Origin: Klebsiella pneumoniae
GTDB taxonomy: Bacteria > Myxococcota_A > UBA796 > SXON01
Direction: 5' to 3'
Length of the DNA: 64,000 nucleotides
Assembly (NCBI GenBank): GCA_945861635.1
Contig: CAMAWH010000003.1
Location: forward strand, 1 to 64,000
This document shows, piece after piece, positions 8,083 through 60,636 of the stretch. Within the stretch, counting starts at the first letter, position 1; the number at the start of each line of letters is the position of its first letter. Position numbers and translations under genes: made by a program. The notes under the pieces are model-generated. The model had not been told where the DNA came from. It was given only the letters and a program-made list of their open reading frames with translations, and ran no database searches.

Positions 8083-9897
8083 ATGGGCAAAGTTATCGGC
8101 ATCGACCTCGGCACCACCAATTCGGTGTGTGCATACATGGACCGGCGCGAGCCCCGGGTCATTATCAACGAGGAAGGCGGGCGGGTAACTCCATCGGTTG
8201 TCGGATTCGCCAAGAATGGTGAACGTTTTGTCGGCGACATCGCGAAGCGGCAAATGCTTATCAATCCCGACGCAACCATCCACTCGGTCAAACGCTTCAT
8301 GGGAAAGCGCTACCGGGAGGCGGGTCGGGACATCCCGCTCGTGAACTACACGGTGGTGGAGTCCAAGGCCGGTGACGTCGGCTTTGACGTGTCGGGCCGG
8401 ATTTACACGCCGCCCGAAATCTCGGCGATGATTCTACAAAAACTGAAACGCTCAGCCGAAGATTTCCTCGGAGAGGCGGTCACCGAAGCGATCATCACGG
8501 TGCCGGCGCACTTCACGGACCGGCAGCGGCAGGCCACGAAGGATGCCGGCTTGATCGCCGGACTCAACGTCCTTCGCATCATCAACGAGCCGACGGCCGC
8601 GGCGCTGGCGTACCTGCACGACCGGCGAAAAAACGCGACGATCGCCGTGTACGACTTCGGCGGCGGCACGTTCGACATCTCGTTGGTGAACATCGACCGT
8701 GACGTTGGCGAGGTTCGTGCGACGCGCGGCAACAACGCGCTCGGCGGCGGTGACATCGACCGGATTGTGGTGGACTGGCTTCTGGAACAGTTCCGCCTGG
8801 AGCACGGCCTCGACGTCAGCCACGACAAGGTCGTTCGGCAGCGCCTGCGTGACGCGGCAGAACGCGCCAAGGTGGAATTGTCCTCCGCTCTCGAAACGGA
8901 AATCCATCTTCCCTTTCTCACTGCTGACGCCACGGGGCCGAAGCACCTCCAATGTTCGCTGTCCCGCGGCAAATTCGAAGCAATGGCGATGCCGCTGTTC
9001 GACCGCACGATTGAGGAATGCCGGAAGGTGCTCGCCGAGGCCAATCTCAACACCGAAGACATCGACGAAGTCGTCATGGTCGGCGGATCTTCACGCATTC
9101 CGCGCGTCAAGGAAATGGTCAAGGACTTCTTTCGGCGGCCGCTGAATCAGGCTTTCAATCCGGACGAAGTCGTGGCCATCGGAGCGGCCGTCCAAGCGGG
9201 CATTCTTGAGGGTGACGTCAAGTCGGTCACGCTGCTGGACGTCACGAATTTCTCTCTCGGTATCGAGGTCGAGGGCCGGCGTTTCGCCAAGTTGATCCCG
9301 AAGAACACGACGATTCCTGCCCAGAAGATCCAGCTCGTGTCTACGGTCGTCGACAACCAGAAAACAGTCAAGATCCACGTCCTGCAGGGGGAAAGCCAGC
9401 TCGCAGGAGAAAACACGTCGCTCGGTGAATTCGAGCTTCAAGGTATCGAAGCGTCGCCGCGTGGACTGCCCCGCATCGAAGTGAAGTTTGCCATCGACGC
9501 CAACGGCATCGTCAACGTGAGCGCCAAGGACGGCCGGAGTGGGCAGGAAAACACGATTACCATTCGGGCTCCGACGGGCATGTCGAAAATAGAGTTGGAG
9601 CAGCTGCGGGTCGAGGCCTCCGCCTTCGAGAAGAGCACGAACGCCGCGGCGGAGCTGAAGGATTTGCGCTTCGCGATCGAGAAGCAGATCGTCGCTCTGG
9701 AGACGTTTTTGCGCGAGCAGAAGGGAATCATGCACAAAAACGACGTCTCGGAATCGGAGCAGGCGCTCAAGCGCGGACGCATGGCGCTGACCAAGACCGC
9801 GGACAAGACGAATCTTGAAGACTTGAGCCTTTACCTCAAGCGTTTCCACGCCCACTTGTGTGACAAGCTCGGGATCACGTCGGTTCCGATTCAGTAG
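8083..9897 (+). CDS. dnaK: Hsp70 chaperone DnaK
   Basis: This 604 aa Hsp70 has all three parts. The nucleotide-binding domain (1 to about 370) carries GIDLGTTNSV, the AVYDFGGGTFDISL phosphate loop and VVMVGGSSRIPRVKEMV. The substrate-binding beta domain (about 375-490) has NFSLGIEVEGRRF and KTVKIHVLQGES. An alpha lid follows to residue 604. The C-terminal disordered acidic tail of E. coli DnaK is missing. It is a normal folding chaperone. No grpE or dnaJ lies next to it. Its last 23 bases overlap the 3' end of lpxB on the other strand. Confidence 0.93.
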   Translation: MGKVIGIDLGTTNSVCAYMDRREPRVIINEEGGRVTPSVVGFAKNGERFVGDIAKRQMLINPDATIHSVKRFMGKRYREAGRDIPLVNYTVVESKAGDVGFDVSGRIYTPPEISAMILQKLKRSAEDFLGEAVTEAIITVPAHFTDRQRQATKDAGLIAGLNVLRIINEPTAAALAYLHDRRKNATIAVYDFGGGTFDISLVNIDRDVGEVRATRGNNALGGGDIDRIVVDWLLEQFRLEHGLDVSHDKVVRQRLRDAAERAKVELSSALETEIHLPFLTADATGPKHLQCSLSRGKFEAMAMPLFDRTIEECRKVLAEANLNTEDIDEVVMVGGSSRIPRVKEMVKDFFRRPLNQAFNPDEVVAIGAAVQAGILEGDVKSVTLLDVTNFSLGIEVEGRRFAKLIPKNTTIPAQKIQLVSTVVDNQKTVKIHVLQGESQLAGENTSLGEFELQGIEASPRGLPRIEVKFAIDANGIVNVSAKDGRSGQENTITIRAPTGMSKIELEQLRVEASAFEKSTNAAAELKDLRFAIEKQIVALETFLREQKGIMHKNDVSESEQALKRGRMALTKTADKTNLEDLSLYLKRFHAHLCDKLGITSVPIQ

Positions 9898-44501: not shown

Positions 44502-44652
44502 GCGGGTTTGCGACAGCCGGAATTTATCTGAAAATTTCTGCTCCACAACCGGCGAAAACGGATCCCCTCGGCCGAATCGGGGCATGATGCGGGCGCGCGC
44601 TCGACCCTCACGCCGGCGCACCCCCCTCCCTCTCCCGACAAATGGAGCTTTC

Positions 44653-47454
44653 GTGCGTATTTTTTCCTTCTCCCTCCTCCTGCTCGGCGCCTGTACCCCC
44701 ACCCCGTCCGACACCGACAAGGGCGCCGATGGTTCCGGAAATGACGCCGTGGACGCGGACGGTGACGGTCTGACGAAGGATGTCGATTGCGACGACGAGG
44801 ACGCGGCCGTTGGCCTCGCCGCAGCCTGGTACGCAGACGGGGATACCGACGGCTACGGCACCGGTGCGGCTACGACGGCCTGCGTCCAGCCACCCGGAAG
44901 CGTCAGCACGGACACGGATTGCGACGACGCGGACGGAGGCGTTCACCCGGACGCCGCCGAAGCGTGCAACGGCGCCGATGACGATTGTGATGGGGATGCG
45001 GACGAGGGATTGACCGCGACAGTCTTCTACGCCGACGACGATGGGGACGGCTCCGGGGACATCACCAAACCCGCCGCCGCTTGCGCCGCAGCGGCCGGCT
45101 ACGCCGCGACGGGCGATGATTGCAACGACGCCGATGCGGCCTACCATCCGGGCGCCGCGGAGGGAGATTGCGCCGACCCGAACGACTACAACTGTGACGG
45201 TTCGGTGGGCTACGCGGACGGCGACAGCGATGGGTATGCGGCGTGCAATGACTGCAATGACGGTGACGATGAAATCAACCCCGTGGCCATCGAACTGTGC
45301 AACGGCGTCGACGACGACTGCGAGGGCACGATCGACATCGATGCCGCCAACGAAAAAGTCTGGTACTACGATGGAGATGCCGACGGCCACGGCACCGATG
45401 CCACAACGATGAACGCGTGCGACGCACCCGCCGACTACGTCGCGACAGGCGCCGACTGCAACGACGCGGACGCCGCGTACCACCCGGGCGCCGACGAGTC
45501 CGACTGCACCGATCCCAACGACTACAATTGCGATTTGTCCGTCGGGTATGTTGACGGTGATGGCGACACGTTTGCCGCATGTGCGGATTGCGACGACGCC
45601 GACGGCGCCGTGAACCCCGACGCCGTGGAGTACTGCGACAGCATCGATAACGATTGCGACCTGACGATCGATGAGGACGACGCCGCCGACGCGAGCATGT
45701 GGTACGCCGACACTGATTCTGACAGCTTCGGGGACGCAACGAGCGTAACCGCCGCTTGCGATGAGCCGGCGGGGTACAGTGACGACGCGACGGACTGCGA
45801 GGACGCGGACGGCACGGTGAATCCCGATGCAACCGAACTGTGTGACGGCATCGACAACGACTGTGACGAGGAGGTGGACGAGGACGGCGCCGCGGACGTT
45901 GCCATGTGGTACGCCGACCTCGATGAGGACGGCTTCGGGGACGCGGAAAGCATGACGATGGCATGCGCCGCGCCCACCGGCTCCATTGCCGACGGGACGG
46001 ACTGCCAGGACAACGACCGCGCCATCCACCCCGACGCGGTGGAGGTCTGTGACGGGGTTGACAACGACTGCGACCTCACCGCCGACGAAGACGACGCCGC
46101 GGATGCATCGATGTGGTACGCCGACCTTGATGAGGACGGCTTCGGGGACGGTTCGAACATGGCCATGGCTTGCGACGCACCGACCGGCTACATCGGCGAC
46201 GATTCCGACTGCGACGACGCCGATGGCGCGGTGAACCCGGACGCGATTGAAGTCTGCGACGCCATCGACAACGACTGCGATGCCAGCACGGACGAGGCCG
46301 ACGCCGACGATGCGCAGACGTGGTACGCGGACGCAGACCTCGACACGTTCGGAGACGTCAGCGTACATACGGTGGCTTGCGACGCTCCAGCGGGATTTGT
46401 GTCCGACGATCAGGACTGCGATGACGATGATGTCACCATCAACCCCGACGGAGCGGAGGTGTGCAACGCCGCCGACGACGATTGTGACGGCGAGACCGAC
46501 GAGGACAGCGCAATCGACGCTTCGCCCTGGTACGCCGACACCGATGGTGACGGGTATGGCAATGCCGACGACGCCGTCGTCGCTTGCGACGCGCCCGCCG
46601 GCTACATCGATGACGACACCGATTGCGATGACGGCGTCAACGGGGACCACCCCGGCGCAACCGAAACGTGCGACGGCGCCGACAACAACTGCGATAGCGC
46701 CGTCGACGAAGCCGGGGCCGTCGGGGAGAGCACCTTCTACGCGGACGGTGACGCCGACACCTACGGCAACGCCAGCAGCACCGTCTCGGCGTGTGACCCG
46801 CCTTCTGGCTACGTCGAAGACGACACGGACTGCGACGATACGGAGGGCGACGTCTACCCCGGCGCGACGGAGGCCTGCGACACCGAGGACGACGATTGTG
46901 ACGGGCTCGTGGACGAAGGCGTCCTCGGTACTTCCGCCTCCTGCCCCGCCGAGGACTGCGCCGAGATTCTTGCGGCTGACCCCGCGTCCGCTAGCGGCAC
47001 GTACTCGCTCGACGCCGGGAGCTACTACTGCAACATGACGACGGACGACGGTGGGTGGACGCGAGTGGCAAACGACGCCAGCGTGTACGGCACCGGATAC
47101 TCTGGAACCTATTACAACGGCGAAGCATTCACCTGGTCAGAGGCGCTCTTTCAATACGATTCCGGCAGCACCCACGGGCACTGCACGTATCCGAGCGCGA
47201 TGACGGGCTGCAACCCGATCGGCTTCCAGTTCAACGCGGACAGCTGGGGTGTGGCGGAGAACTGGGGTTCCAGCGTCTGCGGGATGGCGCTCTCCTACTA
47301 TACGAGTTCAACCTCGTACATTGGCGGGTATGACTTCGTGATCGCGCACGCTTCGACGACCGCGACCATCCGTGTCGGCATGTTGGAAGGCATCTCCAGC
47401 TGCACCACCGGCGACAACTCGGGAACGGCGTATATTGATATCTACGTCCGGTAG
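44653..47454 (+). CDS. giant MopE-repeat lipoprotein with fibrinogen-like C-terminus
   Basis: The 933 aa protein starts VRIFSFSLLLLGAC (lipobox Cys 15; SD GGAG before GTG 44653). Residues about 30-755 carry 11 units of the MopE-type metal-binding motif: WYADxDxDGYG, APxGY, DCDD, NPDAxExC and DNDCDGxxDE, spaced 60-70 residues. The residues AEDCAEILAADP followed by YYCNMTTDDGGWTRVAN begin a fibrinogen-related domain that runs to the end (about 170 residues). It is extracellular, calcium or copper binding by analogy, and possibly an adhesin or lectin. The strongly Asp-rich sequence gives long antisense ORFs, which I discount. Confidence 0.88.
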   Translation: MRIFSFSLLLLGACTPTPSDTDKGADGSGNDAVDADGDGLTKDVDCDDEDAAVGLAAAWYADGDTDGYGTGAATTACVQPPGSVSTDTDCDDADGGVHPDAAEACNGADDDCDGDADEGLTATVFYADDDGDGSGDITKPAAACAAAAGYAATGDDCNDADAAYHPGAAEGDCADPNDYNCDGSVGYADGDSDGYAACNDCNDGDDEINPVAIELCNGVDDDCEGTIDIDAANEKVWYYDGDADGHGTDATTMNACDAPADYVATGADCNDADAAYHPGADESDCTDPNDYNCDLSVGYVDGDGDTFAACADCDDADGAVNPDAVEYCDSIDNDCDLTIDEDDAADASMWYADTDSDSFGDATSVTAACDEPAGYSDDATDCEDADGTVNPDATELCDGIDNDCDEEVDEDGAADVAMWYADLDEDGFGDAESMTMACAAPTGSIADGTDCQDNDRAIHPDAVEVCDGVDNDCDLTADEDDAADASMWYADLDEDGFGDGSNMAMACDAPTGYIGDDSDCDDADGAVNPDAIEVCDAIDNDCDASTDEADADDAQTWYADADLDTFGDVSVHTVACDAPAGFVSDDQDCDDDDVTINPDGAEVCNAADDDCDGETDEDSAIDASPWYADTDGDGYGNADDAVVACDAPAGYIDDDTDCDDGVNGDHPGATETCDGADNNCDSAVDEAGAVGESTFYADGDADTYGNASSTVSACDPPSGYVEDDTDCDDTEGDVYPGATEACDTEDDDCDGLVDEGVLGTSASCPAEDCAEILAADPASASGTYSLDAGSYYCNMTTDDGGWTRVANDASVYGTGYSGTYYNGEAFTWSEALFQYDSGSTHGHCTYPSAMTGCNPIGFQFNADSWGVAENWGSSVCGMALSYYTSSTSYIGGYDFVIAHASTTATIRVGMLEGISSCTTGDNSGTAYIDIYVR
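44749..46920 (+). repeat. MopE-type protein repeats, 11 units
   Basis: About 2.2 kb of coding repeats, each about 190-200 bases, with unit ends ExCDGxDNDCDGxxDE. Units 2 and 4 have a variant ending (DPNDYNCD), so two unit types alternate at the start. Homology between units is high at protein level but only moderate at DNA level. Confidence 0.85.
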
Positions 47455-48040: not shown

Positions 48041-48886
48041 CTACAACCGCCGCGCCAACGTCTTCAGGTGCTCAAACGCCGGTGCGCGACGGGCCGGATC
48101 TTCTAGAATCTCGGCCGGGTGAAACGTCGTGACGACGTCCGCGTTGGCCCACCGCGACCAACCGCCGACGACCCCGCTCGTCAGCGCAATCGAGTCGCGC
48201 CCCAGCGCCAGGACGATGCGCGCTTTTACGATCTCCACCTGGCGACGGACCAACGCGCCGCAGTTCCCGCAGGCCGGCGTCGGCAGTAGAAACACATCTG
48301 TCGGCTCCAAGGCCAGCACCTTCACCAGCATTTTCCCAAACATTTCCTCCGCCGGGCCCGACATCGGCGCCGCAACCACGACCAATCGCGGGCGCAGCGG
48401 CCCCGCGCTCCGAGGTGCCGGGGCACCACAGCCGGCGCAAAACGGCGCAGCCTCTCGAAACAACTTCTCCAGTTCGTCCGCCGGGTCCGCGAGCACAGCC
48501 GCCCACCGTCCGAGCAGGCCCCCGCCAGCGGCGGGCGCCGCTGCCACGGGACCGACCGGAGCGGCAGGGCGCGGCGCCACGGCGGGCGGCGGAATCGGCG
48601 CAGCGGCCGGTCCGGGCGCGGAAAATCTGCCGGTACGTCCGAGATTCTCAGGCCGGGCTACCACAGCGCGCGGCGGCGGACCGTCGTGTCGGGCGGGGGT
48701 CGGCACCGCGAACCGGGGGCTCGCACTACGGCTGGGCGGGGACTCCAGAGTCTCGCCACGCTCCCCTGCTGGCAACGCAACGCCGCCGTCCATCCGGTAC
48801 CCCTCCAGGAGCGCGTGCAGGTCGGCCACGACCTCCGCAAAATCCTCCGCAAGCGCCGTAGCCCCGTCGTCCATCGTCCAGTGCAT
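48041..48886 (-). CDS. uracil-DNA glycosylase superfamily protein (degenerate)
   Basis: The 281 aa protein has a long Pro/Ala-rich linker (about 40-125) before a UDG-like domain: RLVVVAAPMSGPAEEMFGKM (motif A region), LEPTDVFLLPTPACGNCGAL, ARIVLALGRDSIAL and VVTTFHPAEILEDPARRAPA (motif B with HPA). The GExPG catalytic loop of family 4 is not intact, so activity may be lost. Two CxxC pairs (FCAGCG and ACGNCG) could bind an Fe-S cluster or zinc. The start could be ATG 48886 or 48901, overlapping the divergent maf start. Confidence 0.7.
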   Translation of the reverse strand: MHWTMDDGATALAEDFAEVVADLHALLEGYRMDGGVALPAGERGETLESPPSRSASPRFAVPTPARHDGPPPRAVVARPENLGRTGRFSAPGPAAAPIPPPAVAPRPAAPVGPVAAAPAAGGGLLGRWAAVLADPADELEKLFREAAPFCAGCGAPAPRSAGPLRPRLVVVAAPMSGPAEEMFGKMLVKVLALEPTDVFLLPTPACGNCGALVRRQVEIVKARIVLALGRDSIALTSGVVGGWSRWANADVVTTFHPAEILEDPARRAPAFEHLKTLARRL

Positions 48887-48899
48887 TAAGCCGCTGGCC

Positions 48900-49484
48900 A
48901 TGTTCCCGCCTGCGTTTCCGCCCCTCGTTCTTGCGTCCGGCTCGGTCTGGCGGCGCCAGATGCTCGCCGACGCCGGCATCGTCGTCACGGCGACGCCCGC
49001 CGACATGGATGAGGACACCATCGAGGCGAGCGATCCCGAAGCCCTCGCCCGTGCGCGCGCCGTGGCGAAGGCGCACGCCGTACACCGAAGTGGACAATGC
49101 ACCATCGCTGCGGATCAGGTCGCCCACCTGGACGGCGTCGCGTTCGGCAAGCCGCTGGACCCCGCCGACCACCGCGCCAGACTGCGCTCGCTGCGCGGGC
49201 GCACGCACACGCTGACGACGGCGCTCGTCGTGATGCGTGAAAACATTGAGGTCGTCGCAGTTCATTCCTTCGTCAGCTTTCGAGCGGACCTTTCAGATGC
49301 AGAAATCGACGTGTATGTCCACACGGGAGAGGGTAGCGGTTGCGCGGGCGGCTACCGAGCCGAAGGACGCGGCGCCCAGCTCATCGCGCGCGTCGAAGGC
49401 GATTGGTGGAACGTCATCGGCCTTCCGCTGTACGATCTGGTGAGCATCCTGCGCGCCGGGGGATGGCGCCCGATCTTCTCTTGA
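48900..49484 (+). CDS. maf: Maf-like nucleotide pyrophosphatase
   Basis: Maf proteins hydrolyse non-canonical or modified nucleoside triphosphates. The 194 aa protein starts FPPLVLASGSVWRRQMLADAG and has CTIAADQVAHLDGVAFGKPL, a short RSLRGRTHTLTTALVV strand-loop and GCAGGYRAEGRGAQLIARVE, then VIGLPLYDL. The order of motifs is normal. The start overlaps the divergent UDG-like gene. Confidence 0.9.
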   Translation: MFPPAFPPLVLASGSVWRRQMLADAGIVVTATPADMDEDTIEASDPEALARARAVAKAHAVHRSGQCTIAADQVAHLDGVAFGKPLDPADHRARLRSLRGRTHTLTTALVVMRENIEVVAVHSFVSFRADLSDAEIDVYVHTGEGSGCAGGYRAEGRGAQLIARVEGDWWNVIGLPLYDLVSILRAGGWRPIFS

Positions 49485-49518
49485 CGTATGCTCGGGGCGC
49501 CCGGCGGAGATGCGCGCA

Positions 49519-51516
49519 ATGACAACCCGAGCGGTCGGAATCGACCTCGGCACGACTTTCTCGGCCATCGCCCACGTCAACAAGTTTGGTGTGCCGGAGA
49601 TCCTCCACAACGCCGAGGGTGAGCGGATCACGCCGTCCGTCGTGCTGTTTGAAGGTGATGACATCATCATCGGGACCTACGCCAAACAGTCGGCGGTGGC
49701 CTACCCCGAGCAGGTGGTGGAGTTCATCAAGCGGCACATGGGAGACGACGACTATCAGTTCGAGTATCGGCAGGAATCGTACACTCCCGAGAAGCTATCC
49801 AGCTTTATCCTATCAAAGCTGAAACACGACGCGGAGCTTCGCCTCGGACATCGCGTCGATCAGGCCGTCATCACCGTTCCCGCCTATTTCGGAGACAAGC
49901 AGCGCCGCGCCACCATGCGCGCGGGAGAGCTTGCGGGTCTTCAGGTGCTCGCGCTGCTGAACGAACCGACAGCGGCGGCGTTCGCCTACGGACTTGCCAA
50001 CCCCGGCGTAAACAAGAAGGTGATGGTCTTCGACCTCGGCGGCGGCACGTTCGACGTGTCCATCGTGAACGTCGACGGCCCCGAGATCACCGTCCTGGCG
50101 ACCAACGGAGATCACCAGCTCGGCGGCAAGGAATGGGATGACGCCCTGATCAAGTATGCGGCGGACCAGTTCAAGCAGCGGCATGCGATCGACCCGCTCG
50201 ACGATCTCGCCGCCTACCACGACCTCCGCCAAAAGTGCACGAGCGCCAAGCTCTCGCTCACCAAACGCCCGCGCGTCAACCTGTTCTACGATTACCGCGG
50301 GAAGATCCTGCGCTCCGAGATCACCCGGGAGAAATTCGAAGACCTGACGGGGGCGTTGCTCTCGCGGTGTGAGGCGTTGACAAAAGACGTCCTCGACGAC
50401 GCGAAGCTCACCACGGATGACATCGATACCGTCGTGCTTGCGGGCGGATCGACGCGCATGCCGATGGTCCGCGAAATGCTCAAGCGGATGTGGGGTCGCG
50501 ACCCGGCGACGGACATCAACCCCGACGAGTGTGTCGCGCTCGGAGCCGCGCTTACGGCCGCAATTGAGGCCTCCCGCCTGCTCGGTGAGGCGCCGCCAGT
50601 GGATATCCGCACCCATGACGTGACTTCGCACTCGCTCGGGATGGTGGTTTTTCGCGACGGCCGCTTGTACAACTCAAGGATTATTGAGCGAAATAGTCGA
50701 ATTCCGTGTGAGCGCACGCGTGACGACTACGTGACGACCCACGACGGCCAAACCACGATGGACCTTTGGCTCGTGCAGGGAGAAAACGACGATCCGCTCG
50801 ACTGCAACGTGCTCGGGCACTTTGAATTCTACGGCATTCCGATGCGAGACGCAGCGAAATCGCGGCTCGCCGTCACCTTCCGGTACAACGCCAACGGAAT
50901 CGTGGAAGTCGAGGCGATGGACCTCGATTCTGGGCAGACGCTCGCCCATCGGCTTGCCGCCGGTGCGGTGACGCTTGAGGATCTGGCGCGCAACCGGGCG
51001 CCGATGAACGTCGTCCTGCTGATTGATTGCTCGGGGTCCATGTACGGTGCAAACATCGAGGCAGCGCGACAGGCGGCGCTCTCCTTCTCTGAGCGGACGC
51101 TGGGTCCGAACAGGCAAATCTCCGTCGTCGCCTTTCCAGGCGGCGTCGTGTGCCCGCTGACGGCGGACCTGAAGAAGCTTCGCGAGTCCGTCACTGCATT
51201 GACGCCCATCGGCTCCACGCCGCTGGCCGCGGGCCTGGCCGCCGCGCGTGAGCTCATGAAGTCGCGTGCCGGCGTGCAGCGGGTTTTCGTCGTTCTTACC
51301 GATGGACATCCGGACGATCCGGAAGCGGCCATCACCGAGGCGCACCGCATTCGAACGAACGGAGGCCGGATCGTGACCATCGGCGTCGGCCAGCAGGTCC
51401 ACCCCGAGTTCCTCCGAGGCCTCGCGTCACGCCAGGAGGACTACCATTTCTGCAGCGAGTCCGTGGACTTGCAGGGCACCTTTATCAACCTCGCCACCGA
51501 ACTCGCGGGAGACTGA
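49519..51516 (+). CDS. Hsp70-von Willebrand A domain fusion
   Basis: The 665 aa protein has an Hsp70 nucleotide-binding domain (1 to about 370; GIDLGTTFSAI, VFDLGGGTFDVSI, VVLAGGSTRMPMV) and a substrate-binding beta domain (about 375-485; TSHSLGMVVF, TTMDLWLVQGEND). Instead of the alpha lid it has a vWA domain (about 497-660) with an intact MIDAS: LIDCSGSM, then the Thr of IGSTPLAAG, then LTDGHPDD. A MIDAS binds divalent metal and protein ligands. ATG 49519 is chosen because GGAG lies nine bases upstream, while ATG 49510 touches it. The first gene of a chaperone cluster, with a GrpE-like gene four bases downstream. Confidence 0.9.
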   Translation: MTTRAVGIDLGTTFSAIAHVNKFGVPEILHNAEGERITPSVVLFEGDDIIIGTYAKQSAVAYPEQVVEFIKRHMGDDDYQFEYRQESYTPEKLSSFILSKLKHDAELRLGHRVDQAVITVPAYFGDKQRRATMRAGELAGLQVLALLNEPTAAAFAYGLANPGVNKKVMVFDLGGGTFDVSIVNVDGPEITVLATNGDHQLGGKEWDDALIKYAADQFKQRHAIDPLDDLAAYHDLRQKCTSAKLSLTKRPRVNLFYDYRGKILRSEITREKFEDLTGALLSRCEALTKDVLDDAKLTTDDIDTVVLAGGSTRMPMVREMLKRMWGRDPATDINPDECVALGAALTAAIEASRLLGEAPPVDIRTHDVTSHSLGMVVFRDGRLYNSRIIERNSRIPCERTRDDYVTTHDGQTTMDLWLVQGENDDPLDCNVLGHFEFYGIPMRDAAKSRLAVTFRYNANGIVEVEAMDLDSGQTLAHRLAAGAVTLEDLARNRAPMNVVLLIDCSGSMYGANIEAARQAALSFSERTLGPNRQISVVAFPGGVVCPLTADLKKLRESVTALTPIGSTPLAAGLAAARELMKSRAGVQRVFVVLTDGHPDDPEAAITEAHRIRTNGGRIVTIGVGQQVHPEFLRGLASRQEDYHFCSESVDLQGTFINLATELAGD

Positions 51517-53779: not shown

Positions 53780-55774
53780 ATGGAACGACGTGAGCTCGAC
53801 GACATCGAGCGATTCCTTACTACGGTGGGTCATCCCACGCTGCTGGCGTACTACGGTCTCACCGAGTCCGGAACGCCAGAAGACCGTGAGGCGGCCGTCA
53901 AGAAGCGCCGCGCGTGGGCGCAGGGCCAACAGGCCAACCCGAAATTCAAGGCGGAAGCTCTCTTTCTGATCAAGAACAATACGACGCTGAAGCGCCTCCT
54001 GGTAATGGACTTCGATGCGTATCGTCAGCACTTCATCGACGTCGCCTCGGCGAAGAATGTAGACGAGCTGTCCCAATTCATCCGCGGCGCGCTGGCAAAC
54101 GCGGTTTTGACCGCCCAGGGAGAAGCAGCCGCTCGGCACCACGGGCGCGCCCTCGGCCTCGACGACGCCGTCGTGGGTGCGCGCATCGATGAATTGCTCA
54201 ACGAGATGGGGGCCGTGCGGGGCGACTTCGAGGACGACGCGATTCCTGGCAGTGCAGCAGCGGTCGATTATTACGCCGTCCTCGATGTCTCGCCGTTCGC
54301 AACACCGGCCGAATTGGAGTTGGCGTACCGGGCGAAATACCGATGGGCGCGCAACGTGAAGGACCTGAAACGGTCCGGCGAGGTCTTGTCCAACCTCGAC
54401 GATGGCTGGCGGATCCTGAAGGATCCCGCAAAACGTGACCGCTACGACGAGATGCGCGCCCAACTGCGAGAGGTCACCGACGAAGTCGAGCGACACGCCG
54501 CAAAGCTCAATCAACTCCTCGAAGACGAGCGTCAGGCGGAGCCGCCGGACCCGCCGGCGATCTCGATGGGGCCGCCGACGGAGTACGCGCCCCGCCACGT
54601 GGTGCCCACCACGACCGATGAAACGCGGCTCCCGACGACCCCGGTGAGGTCCGGCGGAGCGGTAAGCGGCGCGGTGCCAACGGAGCCGGCCTCCCCCCTT
54701 GTTACCGGGCGCCCCGTGGACGTCGTACGGACGCCGGACGCGATGAAGGAAGCGAGAGAGAACGCGCCGCCGAAGCCCAGAGACGCGCCGGTTCCACAGA
54801 TTGCCGGTCGAACCATCGGGATCGCCGACGGACCGCAAGCTGTACGAGAGCGCGCGCCGCGCTTGCAGGTACAAGGCGCAACGATGCTTCGAATGACCGT
54901 TGGTCGGCGGACGACCGACTACGGCCTCCAGATCGTGAATGTCGGGCAGGGAAAGATGCCAGGAAAGCTGGTCACCGACTCGCCGTGGCTGGTGCCGCAA
55001 AAGCTCTGGCTCGAACCGGGAGCGCGTGAACAAACGATTGTTGTGTCCGTCCGGCCGGAGCGCATGGCGCGGCGGACGATGACTGGTACGGTCACCGTGG
55101 TCGCCGACCACGGGGAAAGGCGGGTGATCACGTTCGACGTGCGAAAGCGGGGATACGCCGTTCCACTGCTTTTGCTGCTATTGCTGGTGAGCGCCGTGGG
55201 CGTTGCCGGCCTTGCCGTGGAGGCCAACCAGCCGCCGGCAGCGCCGCTGTCGCCCGCGCTGCTGCTCACCGTGGTCCCCTTCGCGGACCGCGTTCTGGTG
55301 GACGGTGTCGACATCGGTAGCGGCTCGACCATCACGGTCGAGGATCCGCACGCCGGTGCGCCGTTCCGCGTCCGTATCGAGACGGATGGCTTCGCCCCGC
55401 ACGAGGAACTCGTGGCCCTCCGCGGATCTCCAATGCAGCGCACCATTCGGCTTGACCTCACCGACAGGATGGACTGGAAGCCCGCGCTCGATGCGACGCG
55501 GACCGACCTCGGACCCCGCGGCGAGAAACTGGCGCGCGCGTTGGCGCCCGTCCTCGCGACGTGCGTGGTTCCACCTGTCAAAAACGCACAAGCAACATTC
55601 CATGCCTTGGCATCTTCGGATGGACAGGTGCGCGGGCTGACCGTCGACGGAGCGAACTTCTCGGTTCCTCCGGCCGCCCCGTGCTTCATGCATGCATTCC
55701 GCGGGATGCGAGTGGGCGGATTCGAGGGGGACTACGCCCAGATCGACATCGACCTGAAGCTGCCGGCTCCATGA
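53780..55774 (+). CDS. membrane protein: J-like domain, Ig-like, TM helix, PEGA
   Basis: The 664 aa protein begins with a helical domain (about 5-85, HPTLLAYYGLTESGTPEDRE) that may itself be a degenerate J-like fold. At 163-232 there is a J domain (DYYAVLDVSPFATPAELELA, then NLDDGWRILKDPAKRDRYDE), but the His-Pro-Asp tripeptide that stimulates Hsp70 is absent. A Pro-rich linker follows, then an Ig-like domain (about 370-455, VNVGQGKMPGKLVTDSPWLV), one membrane helix (about 460-482, VPLLLLLLLVSAVGVAGLAV), a PEGA domain (about 494-550, VDGVDIGSGSTITVEDPHAG) and a periplasmic tail. It ends overlapping the next start by four bases. It probably anchors the neighbouring Hsp70s. Confidence 0.78.
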   Translation: MERRELDDIERFLTTVGHPTLLAYYGLTESGTPEDREAAVKKRRAWAQGQQANPKFKAEALFLIKNNTTLKRLLVMDFDAYRQHFIDVASAKNVDELSQFIRGALANAVLTAQGEAAARHHGRALGLDDAVVGARIDELLNEMGAVRGDFEDDAIPGSAAAVDYYAVLDVSPFATPAELELAYRAKYRWARNVKDLKRSGEVLSNLDDGWRILKDPAKRDRYDEMRAQLREVTDEVERHAAKLNQLLEDERQAEPPDPPAISMGPPTEYAPRHVVPTTTDETRLPTTPVRSGGAVSGAVPTEPASPLVTGRPVDVVRTPDAMKEARENAPPKPRDAPVPQIAGRTIGIADGPQAVRERAPRLQVQGATMLRMTVGRRTTDYGLQIVNVGQGKMPGKLVTDSPWLVPQKLWLEPGAREQTIVVSVRPERMARRTMTGTVTVVADHGERRVITFDVRKRGYAVPLLLLLLLVSAVGVAGLAVEANQPPAAPLSPALLLTVVPFADRVLVDGVDIGSGSTITVEDPHAGAPFRVRIETDGFAPHEELVALRGSPMQRTIRLDLTDRMDWKPALDATRTDLGPRGEKLARALAPVLATCVVPPVKNAQATFHALASSDGQVRGLTVDGANFSVPPAAPCFMHAFRGMRVGGFEGDYAQIDIDLKLPAP

Positions 55775-56634: not shown

Positions 56635-56710
<76 letters not shown>

Positions 56711-59491: not shown

Positions 59492-60028
59492 CTAAGGCCC
59501 GTCAGCGGCCTCGTCAAGCTGGACCCATGCGCGCATCTCGGGGAGCACGGTTTCTCGCCAGTCTGGCGCCGTACGCTCGGCCGCGAACCGCCGAAAGAGC
59601 GCCGCCACAACGAAATGCAGCTCTTCGTAGGTATACATTCGGTCGTACAGGATCTCCGCGACGTCACCCGTCTTGACCTGGACCGCTAATTTCGCCGCCG
59701 CAATGGACACACGCGGGCCACGGAGTGTCACGGTGTACTCGCGATCCTCACGACGGAGCGCCAGACGAATCTCCTTGAGCACCTTTCCGCCCGCAAGCGC
59801 GGCGCGCGCCTCCGGCGACGTCGACGGCCTTTCTCCGGTGAGCATGACGCTGGCGCGCTCCTCCCCCACGGCGCGAAAGGCGATTCGGTCGTCCACCCAG
59901 AACTCGACGGCGCCCTCGTCCGGTCCGAGCTCGACCCGACCGCGGCCCACCTCGCTCCGATACCAGAGCCAAACGTAGAATTCGCTTGCGACGTGGGGTG
60001 AGATCTCGTCGTTGGTTTCTTCGCTCAT
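59492..60028 (-). CDS. RdgC-like protein, C-terminal half
   Basis: The 178 aa protein matches the second half of RdgC-type proteins by pattern: ASEFYVWLWYRSEVGRGRVE, EFWVDDRIAFRAVGEE, ALAGGKVLKEIRLALRRED, then a helical end (YEELHFVVAALFRRFAAE). The ATG overlaps the N-terminal half's stop (ATGA), so it is made with it. RdgC forms a ring on DNA and limits RecA. The call is moderate and rests on order and pattern. Confidence 0.5.
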   Translation of the reverse strand: MSEETNDEISPHVASEFYVWLWYRSEVGRGRVELGPDEGAVEFWVDDRIAFRAVGEERASVMLTGERPSTSPEARAALAGGKVLKEIRLALRREDREYTVTLRGPRVSIAAAKLAVQVKTGDVAEILYDRMYTYEELHFVVAALFRRFAAERTAPDWRETVLPEMRAWVQLDEAADGP

Positions 60029-60636
60029 TTCGCCTCCCGGAGGTCACTTGCGCCGCTGGCGACCAGACGCAACGCGGTGTCCGCGTCTCCCAGTTCGTCG
60101 AGCGGGCTCCACGGCACGGGGCGCAGGGAAAACGTGCGGTAGAACAGCTTGCGAAAGGTGTCGTTGGCCGTTTCACTGTCATTGTGCAGAAACAACCAGC
60201 CGTCCACCACGTTCCAAACGCATTCCAGAAGCGCCACATTCGGAAGCGTTTGCTTCAGCATCTCTAATTCTAGAGCCTCCTTCACTTCTTCCCGCACGCC
60301 CGGCGGGCAGCGATCACGGTTGTTCGCCGTGCACCAGTGCTGTTGCCGCTTCTGGAGCGTCGCCTTGAACAGCTTGCTCGGAATCACCTTTTTGTCGATA
60401 CGAAGCGAAAAAAGCGCGTACTGATTGTACAACCACTGATTGACGTCCAGGAACGACGTGTCGAGCAGGTTGTGCGCCTGCACCCATCCCATCGTCGGCT
60501 CCTTGCGGGTCGGGGAGAGCGGCTCACGGAAGGAATTCGCCTCCAAGGCCTCGATGTATGTGTCACGCCAGCCCTCGGGCAGTTCACCCTCGACGCGATA
60601 GCGACGCCCGCTGAGGGCACCTTTCAAAATCCCCAT
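60025..60636 (-). CDS. RdgC-like protein, N-terminal half
   Basis: The 203 aa protein starts MGILKGALSGRRYRVEGELP, has LGWVQ-like MGWVQAHNLLDTSFLD, then ALFSLRIDKKVIPSKLFKAT and LKQTLPNVALLECVWNVVDG, which follow the RdgC N-terminal fold. RdgC is normally one chain of about 300-370 aa. Here the gene is split from its C-terminal half with a 4-base overlap, so it may be a true fission. The neighbour upstream (18 bases) is the double LSm-like gene. Confidence 0.55.
   Translation of the reverse strand: MGILKGALSGRRYRVEGELPEGWRDTYIEALEANSFREPLSPTRKEPTMGWVQAHNLLDTSFLDVNQWLYNQYALFSLRIDKKVIPSKLFKATLQKRQQHWCTANNRDRCPPGVREEVKEALELEMLKQTLPNVALLECVWNVVDGWLFLHNDSETANDTFRKLFYRTFSLRPVPWSPLDELGDADTALRLVASGASDLREAK

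Follow-up and report, generated by a model that had tools for sequence, protein, structure and literature searches.

To our knowledge, all well-studied Hsp70s are thought to rely on the same J-domain handshake, and most of them also on a lid. Myxococcus xanthus has the accessory Hsp70s SglK/GrpS and StkA, one of which has its own GrpE; no vWA domain is reported for them. In yeast, the J-protein Zuo1 has a functional HPD motif.

In the DnaK-DnaJ complex, His33 of the HPD motif contacts Leu391 of the DnaK interdomain linker and Asp35 contacts Arg167 (PMC8215388, PMC13012618). DnaK carrying R167A is non-functional without the DnaJ suppressor D35N (PMC13012618). Several variations on this machinery have been described. 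An HSP70-GrpE-HSP70-DnaJ/FNIII theme occurs in GAP1-N2 GTPase systems (Kaur et al. 2020, PMC7159879). CsdK1 and CsdK2 of M. xanthus are PilZ-DnaK chaperones with CdbS as their dedicated client (PMC10313047). In the yeast ribosome-associated complex (RAC), the non-canonical Hsp70 Ssz1 is complexed with Zuo1 beside another Hsp70 (PMC7083937).

Here we describe a module of four genes in a window of 64,000 nucleotides (the whole stretch of DNA that was analysed), beginning with an Hsp70 that bears a C-terminal vWA domain (vWA-Hsp70). As in DnaK/DnaJ/GrpE, the NBD motifs, the SBD-beta and a linked GrpE are found, and identity to solved DnaKs is ~29-41%. Unlike that system, the module has no lid, the linker residues VLLL are replaced by IRTH and Arg167 by Ala, Lys or Ser, the Hsp70 ends in a vWA domain, and the J-like protein of the module, unlike DnaJ, has no canonical HPD. 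The GAP1-N2 theme is the closest described cast: it too has four parts, among them a second Hsp70 without substrate-binding parts and a DnaJ joined to a beta-sandwich domain (PMC7159879). The present module differs in that it has no GAP1-N2, appears to be core and vertically inherited, carries the vWA on the Hsp70 itself and belongs to Myxococcota. Among fused Hsp70s of the phylum, CsdK1 and CsdK2 come closest, since they too join an Hsp70 to a ligand-binding domain and have a dedicated client; however, the domain is PilZ and not vWA, an SBD and a conserved linker are described for them, and they do not belong to this four-gene module (PMC10313047). The Ssz1-Zuo1 pair resembles the module in its arrangement and differs from it in being eukaryotic, ribosome-bound and without a vWA (PMC7083937).

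Domain organization and predicted structure of the vWA-Hsp70

The coordinates of the module are given in Table 1. The reading frame of the vWA-Hsp70 starts at 49510 or 49519. The start at 49519, which gives 665 aa and had been read so in the preliminary description, is most likely the correct one and is favoured over the mechanical ORF start at 49510, because GGAG is found at ~49505-49508 and members of the family begin with MxTRAVGID.

Table 1. Positions in the window of the features of the vWA-Hsp70 module and its upstream neighbour.
Feature	Position	Strand	Basis or remark
Maf-like nucleotide pyrophosphatase gene	48900..49484	+	Conserved neighbour, 25 bp upstream, not part of the module
vWA-Hsp70 (NBD, SBD-beta, C-terminal vWA)	49519..51516	+	Pfam HSP70/VWA, AlphaFold2, ~50 relatives at 51-85% identity
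NBD	49531..50583	+	GIDLGTT, FIKR (K74), NEPTA (E152), DLGGGTFD and GGSTRMP essentially invariant (48 relatives)
A148, equivalent of DnaK Arg167 (J-domain HPD contact)	49951..49953	+	Arg in only 1/48 vWA-Hsp70s
Interdomain linker VDIRTHD in place of DnaK-type VLLLD	50599..50619	+	Alignment
SBD-beta sandwich	50620..50955	+	Best conserved region, 86% mean column identity
vWA domain	51004..51507	+	Pfam VWA, alignment, AlphaFold2
MIDAS: DCSGS; T570; D598	51025-51039; 51217-51219; 51301-51303	+	
Private, divergent GrpE, 163 aa	51521..52012	+	Pfam GrpE (PF01025), E 5e-14, 52.7 bits vs 25.8
Hsp70b (NBD, truncated SBD-beta; no lid, no vWA), 556 aa	52014..53684	+	Pfam HSP70, E 2e-118
J-like membrane protein, 664 aa	53780..55774	+	Weak Pfam DnaJ, AlphaFold2, alignment
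Putative J-like domain 1, conserved WAQGQQANPK at HPD-loop position	53813..54019	+	AlphaFold2; J-like assignment inferred
J-like domain 2, YRWAR instead of HPD	54260..54457	+	Alignment, weak Pfam DnaJ
Predicted TM helix of J-like protein	55163..55219	+	Hydropathy 2.6 over 19 residues; AlphaFold2 helix 460-475

Pfam HSP70 (PF00012) spans residues 8-477 (E 6e-135) and is followed in frame by Pfam VWA at residues 500-648 (E 2.8e-17; 63.9 bits vs a cut-off of 23.8). The AlphaFold2 model, for which a 41-row alignment was used, had a mean pLDDT of 86.2 and a pTM of 0.78. Its order is NBD, SBD-beta strands (367-482), a short helix (489-493) and vWA (499-666), and residues 499-666 show the alternating alpha/beta order typical of the vWA fold. 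The model contains no helical lid (SBD-alpha), and the vWA begins at the position where lid helix A would start. The preliminary description had placed a vWA domain at the lid position and had named structure prediction as a check; both the Pfam matches and the predicted fold bear it out. The MIDAS strings that it listed (LIDCSGSM, Thr, LTDGHPDD) were also read correctly and form the pattern D506-x-S508-x-S510, T570, D598. Over 48 aligned full-length vWA-Hsp70s, D506, S508, S510 and D598 never vary, and T570 is kept in 47.

An actin-like NBD with phosphate-1, phosphate-2 and adenosine motifs, together with the SBD-beta, is what defines the Hsp70 superfamily, and all of these are found in the vWA-Hsp70. 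Its C-terminal domain likewise combines a Rossmann-like alpha/beta fold with DxSxS...T...D, as vWA domains with a MIDAS do, metal binding itself being predicted. The DnaK equivalog model TIGR02350 gave 437 bits vs a cut-off of 822, and three marks of DnaK proper are missing, namely the VLLL linker, Arg167 (1/48) and the helical lid. Judged by sequence, the vWA-Hsp70 is a member of the Hsp70 superfamily and not DnaK proper. In Foldseek, the NBD-SBD-beta part matched DnaK (E 2e-55), and the model resembled docked, ATP-like, lid-truncated BiP (TM 0.84-0.85), which suggests that docking between NBD and SBD may persist.

Distribution of the fusion

A scan of 84,980 species genomes, with patterns that detect close relatives only, found 50 loci, all of them relatives of the fusion in MAGs that are 'Deltaproteobacteria'/Myxococcota by their record titles. 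Four public MAGs titled 'Klebsiella pneumoniae' (L017, L018, L037, L043) encode proteins 68-81% identical to the vWA-Hsp70, and these titles are probably wrong. The fusion was present in 37 of 38 near-relative whole genomes, including 21/21 among the best ones, and occupied a fixed locus in 60 of the 63 genomes of one Myxococcota order. The three genomes of the order without it are 80-82% complete. It was found in 0/8 genomes from other orders of the class.

We ran an SBD-vWA profile on 379 genomes of the phylum and recovered the same 60 fusions at E <= 2e-104. In the other 316 genomes the fusion was not seen among the matches listed (best five candidates per genome); the best non-fusion match listed had an E of 1.5e-23, and one half of the profile, SBD or vWA, accounted for each such match listed. 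A wider vWA-Hsp70 fusion family in the phylum was rejected, as the matches listed in these genomes are half-domain matches. Plasmid records gave only partial matches to the fusion, mostly to the DnaK half, and no match to the J-like protein. A search of this kind had been proposed in the preliminary description and, within the genomes of the phylum covered here, places the fusion in a single order. From its distribution, the module is inherited vertically and order-wide. No published Hsp70-vWA fusion was found in the literature searched, subscription papers lying outside that search.

The window is part of a draft assembly of 128 contigs, and an artefact of assembly or annotation might have joined two genes, as the preliminary description had itself considered. 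The same fusion is open and in frame in ~50 independently assembled contigs, besides the 60/63 genomes, and the sequence of the SBD/vWA joint is conserved among relatives. The chance of an artefactual join is negligible on this evidence, and we excluded it.

The four-gene module

In relatives with long enough contigs, the order vWA-Hsp70, private GrpE, Hsp70b and J-like membrane protein is conserved. The vWA-Hsp70 and GrpE genes are 4 bp apart, and the GrpE and Hsp70b genes 1 bp. GrpE lies above the gathering score of PF01025 and, among relatives whose length allows a judgement, is almost always next to the fusion. The tail of Hsp70b after its SBD-beta is 26 residues in nearly all relatives, and its ATP-site motifs are intact in 36/37 aligned copies.

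A maximum likelihood tree of 45 Hsp70s resolved the vWA-Hsp70s and Hsp70b as two fully supported groups, which a long, fully supported branch parts from all other sampled Hsp70s. The NBDs of the two are ~50% identical to each other, whereas identity to other Hsp70s of the genome, which has about ten Hsp70-family genes, is 33-38%. By tree and identity, vWA-Hsp70 and Hsp70b are mutual closest relatives, which a tandem duplication within the module would explain most simply. Because the closest relative Hsp70b is also lidless, the lid may already have been gone when the vWA was added. The earlier statement that the vWA replaces the lid thus applies to position and not to history. A further Hsp70 in the window (8092-9816, + strand; L003; 614 aa frame) is not close to the vWA-Hsp70.

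The most diverged member of the family (G049, contig L100, 3099-8165) has no grpE between its Hsp70 genes and a degenerate Hsp70b. Hsp70b is degenerate in L050 (5743-7386) too, and the ATP-site motifs are lost in both. The ATPase of Hsp70b may be dispensable in these two. This bears on a reading in which the module is an ATP switch and not a chaperone: both Hsp70s and the J-like protein would form a stable scaffold, as in Ssz1-Zuo1 RAC or Hsp70-Hsp110, and the vWA would recruit a target enzyme as in MoxR/chelatase systems. Two lidless Hsp70s do adjoin a J-like protein, Hsp70b has decayed in the lineages just named, and coupling of vWA to chaperones is established for MoxR-vWA pairs (PMC7159879). 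However, nearly all Hsp70b copies keep their motifs, a private GrpE points to turnover, and the SBD-beta is the best conserved part of the vWA-Hsp70, all of which makes an ATP switch of this kind improbable. No AAA+ gene that could be a MoxR partner was found among the module genes and the neighbouring ORFs scanned with Pfam.

The J-like membrane protein

Residues 163-223 of the J-like protein matched Pfam DnaJ with an E of 2.6e-4, below the cut-off. At the HPD loop, YRWAR is present in 19/34 J-like proteins and various other sequences in the remainder. No HPD in the canonical register was found in the readable J-like relatives; an HPD tripeptide lies two residues downstream of the canonical place in L037 and L057 and outside the loop in L051. 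J-domain proteins are recognized by HPD in the loop between helices II and III, and the partner lacks it. Pattern and helix order suggest a second J-like domain at residues 18-80, the loop of which has a conserved QGQQANPK.

The AlphaFold2 model of this protein (mean pLDDT 82, pTM 0.34, domain placement unreliable) starts with helical domains, which are followed by a disordered part (~253-355), a beta-sandwich (361-456), a TM helix and, at the C-terminus, two further domains. Foldseek gave only low-coverage matches, to beta-sandwich proteins. A hydrophobic peak of 19 residues follows the beta-sandwich in nearly all relatives, and RKRG ahead of the predicted TM helix suggests that the N-terminus is inside. 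The N-terminal J-like domain of this protein recurs in genomes of the same order (L101:4655-6034, - strand; L102:5619-6968, + strand; L103:4236-5585, - strand), where it is joined to a SAM methyltransferase and a weak TerB-like match lies between the two. The same adaptor may have a second user in these proteins.

Loss of the J-protein/Hsp70 contacts

To compare the contact residues, 37 other Hsp70s, 48 vWA-Hsp70s and 38 Hsp70b were aligned. Position 167 is Arg in 36/37 other Hsp70s, in 1/48 vWA-Hsp70s and in 0/38 Hsp70b. The vWA-Hsp70s have K (28), A (13), S (4) and one each of N, Q and R at this position, and Hsp70b has Ser in 38/38. Position 391 is Leu in 37/37 other Hsp70s and Thr in 45/48 vWA-Hsp70s, in which Leu392 is replaced by His (45/48) and Leu390 by Arg (44/48); Asp393 is kept throughout. 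Canonical DnaK/DnaJ/GrpE sets encoded elsewhere in the same genome have Arg167, a hydrophobic linker and HPD, which indicates that the module is additional to the standard machinery. From the alignment, the standard J-protein/Hsp70 contacts are lost on both partners, a result new here. Since Arg167, the linker and HPD are altered and the ATPase motifs and GrpE are kept, the contact parts of the two proteins have changed together.

The preliminary description had proposed an Hsp70 gated by, or delivered to, a specific partner. The intact MIDAS, strongly constrained across an order, argues that binding of a ligand or partner matters, and this part of the proposal gains from the data. The classical allosteric gating that it assumed may be absent from the vWA-Hsp70, as the linker, the Arg167 position and the HPD of the partner are all changed.

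The vWA-Hsp70 might instead be an ordinary specialised Hsp70, with the vWA as an extra client-docking domain, its cycle driven by a canonical J-protein from elsewhere and the J-like gene a decayed relic retained for its membrane or beta domains. The fully conserved NBD and SBD-beta, the HPD-bearing J-proteins of the genome, the Lys at position 167 in 28/48 proteins, and lidless DnaK constructs that are stable and solved (2v7y, 5obu) are all consistent with this. Against it, the residues that contact HPD (Leu391/Leu392, Arg167) were swapped in concert for other conserved residues and not by random decay, and the conserved YRWAR and NPK motifs are unexpected in a relic. We regard an ordinary Hsp70 as rather unlikely, though it is the main rival to the mechanism proposed below.

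Proposed mechanism

We tentatively propose, with a little less than even confidence, that the module is an ATP-switched, GrpE-reset and membrane-scaffolded Hsp70 pair that chooses its client via the vWA and not by a J-triggered lid cycle. The proposal builds on the architecture, conservation, four-gene set, vertical presence and contact loss described above, from which we infer coupling, binding and localisation. The NBD, with its intact motifs, would bind and hydrolyse ATP and be reset by the GrpE of the operon. An ATP-driven rearrangement of NBD and SBD-beta would be coupled to a client that SBD-beta and vWA hold together, with the MIDAS metal chelating an acidic residue of a specific client or partner. 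The vWA would thus provide selectivity and holding, which are normally the jobs of the J-protein and the lid. The TM-anchored J-like protein would be a membrane scaffold for both Hsp70s without acting as an HPD-type trigger of the ATPase. Since two diverged lineages have a decayed Hsp70b, its role would be that of a structural or regulatory partner. The TM anchor and the fixed position at a housekeeping locus point to a core function associated with the envelope.

Several points speak against this mechanism. The SBD-beta, the most conserved region, could still bind peptides ordinarily. Lys at position 167 might form a salt bridge with an acidic residue. The match of the model to docked, ATP-like BiP also leaves room for interdomain docking. 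An HPD-bearing J-protein encoded elsewhere could act on the vWA-Hsp70, and the partners in L037 and L057 do have off-register HPD tripeptides. A stronger version, in which the machine works without J/HPD triggering or lid, the MIDAS ligand on the vWA gates the ATP cycle and the J-like domains are mere structural adaptors on a membrane scaffold, is doubtful. If it were true, the Hsp70 fold would have a distinct mode of control that is established throughout a bacterial order.

The module may be a differently controlled Hsp70 machine. It offers a natural example, spread through a whole order, where the handshake is changed on both sides (Arg167 and the linker leucines; HPD), the ATPase residues are kept and a vWA stands at the lid position, and it makes testable whether a different trigger can run an Hsp70. 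As a naturally modular Hsp70, it may also allow client choice to be read from the MIDAS ligand.

Genomic neighbourhood

The locus has a fixed place next to Maf, UDG and YajC/SecD-like genes. A phage-defence or biological-conflict system, akin to the GAP1-N2 Hsp70/GrpE/DnaJ theme or to vWA-MoxR ternary systems, was considered, since GAP1-N2 neighbourhoods have a similar gene cast of HSP70, GrpE, HSP70 without the peptide-binding domain and DnaJ-beta domain (PMC7159879). However, the module is near-universal in the order, vertical, and neither patchy nor hypervariable, and the operon has no effector or GTPase. No match to GAP1-N2 (PF20013) was found in the whole genome, and the positive control was detected in Corynebacterium glutamicum. 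A defence or conflict island is disfavoured on these grounds and is very unlikely.

Of 44 relatives, 14 have the Maf gene co-directional with the module and 30 have it divergent; by these orientations it flipped within the order. A functional link of Maf via co-transcription was dropped because of the divergent cases. Upstream, a UDG-like gene (48041-49105, - strand) is a conserved neighbour alongside the Maf-like gene. Promoter and terminator scans were at chance level, and no RNA family was found within the operon. A 956-aa protein near the module (44584-47454, + strand) has 11 copies of a MopE-type putative metal-binding motif (PF11617). Downstream of the module there is a tRNA gene (56635-56707, + strand), and an RdgC-like match (60025-60636, - strand) has an E of 9e-7, just over the family cut-off.
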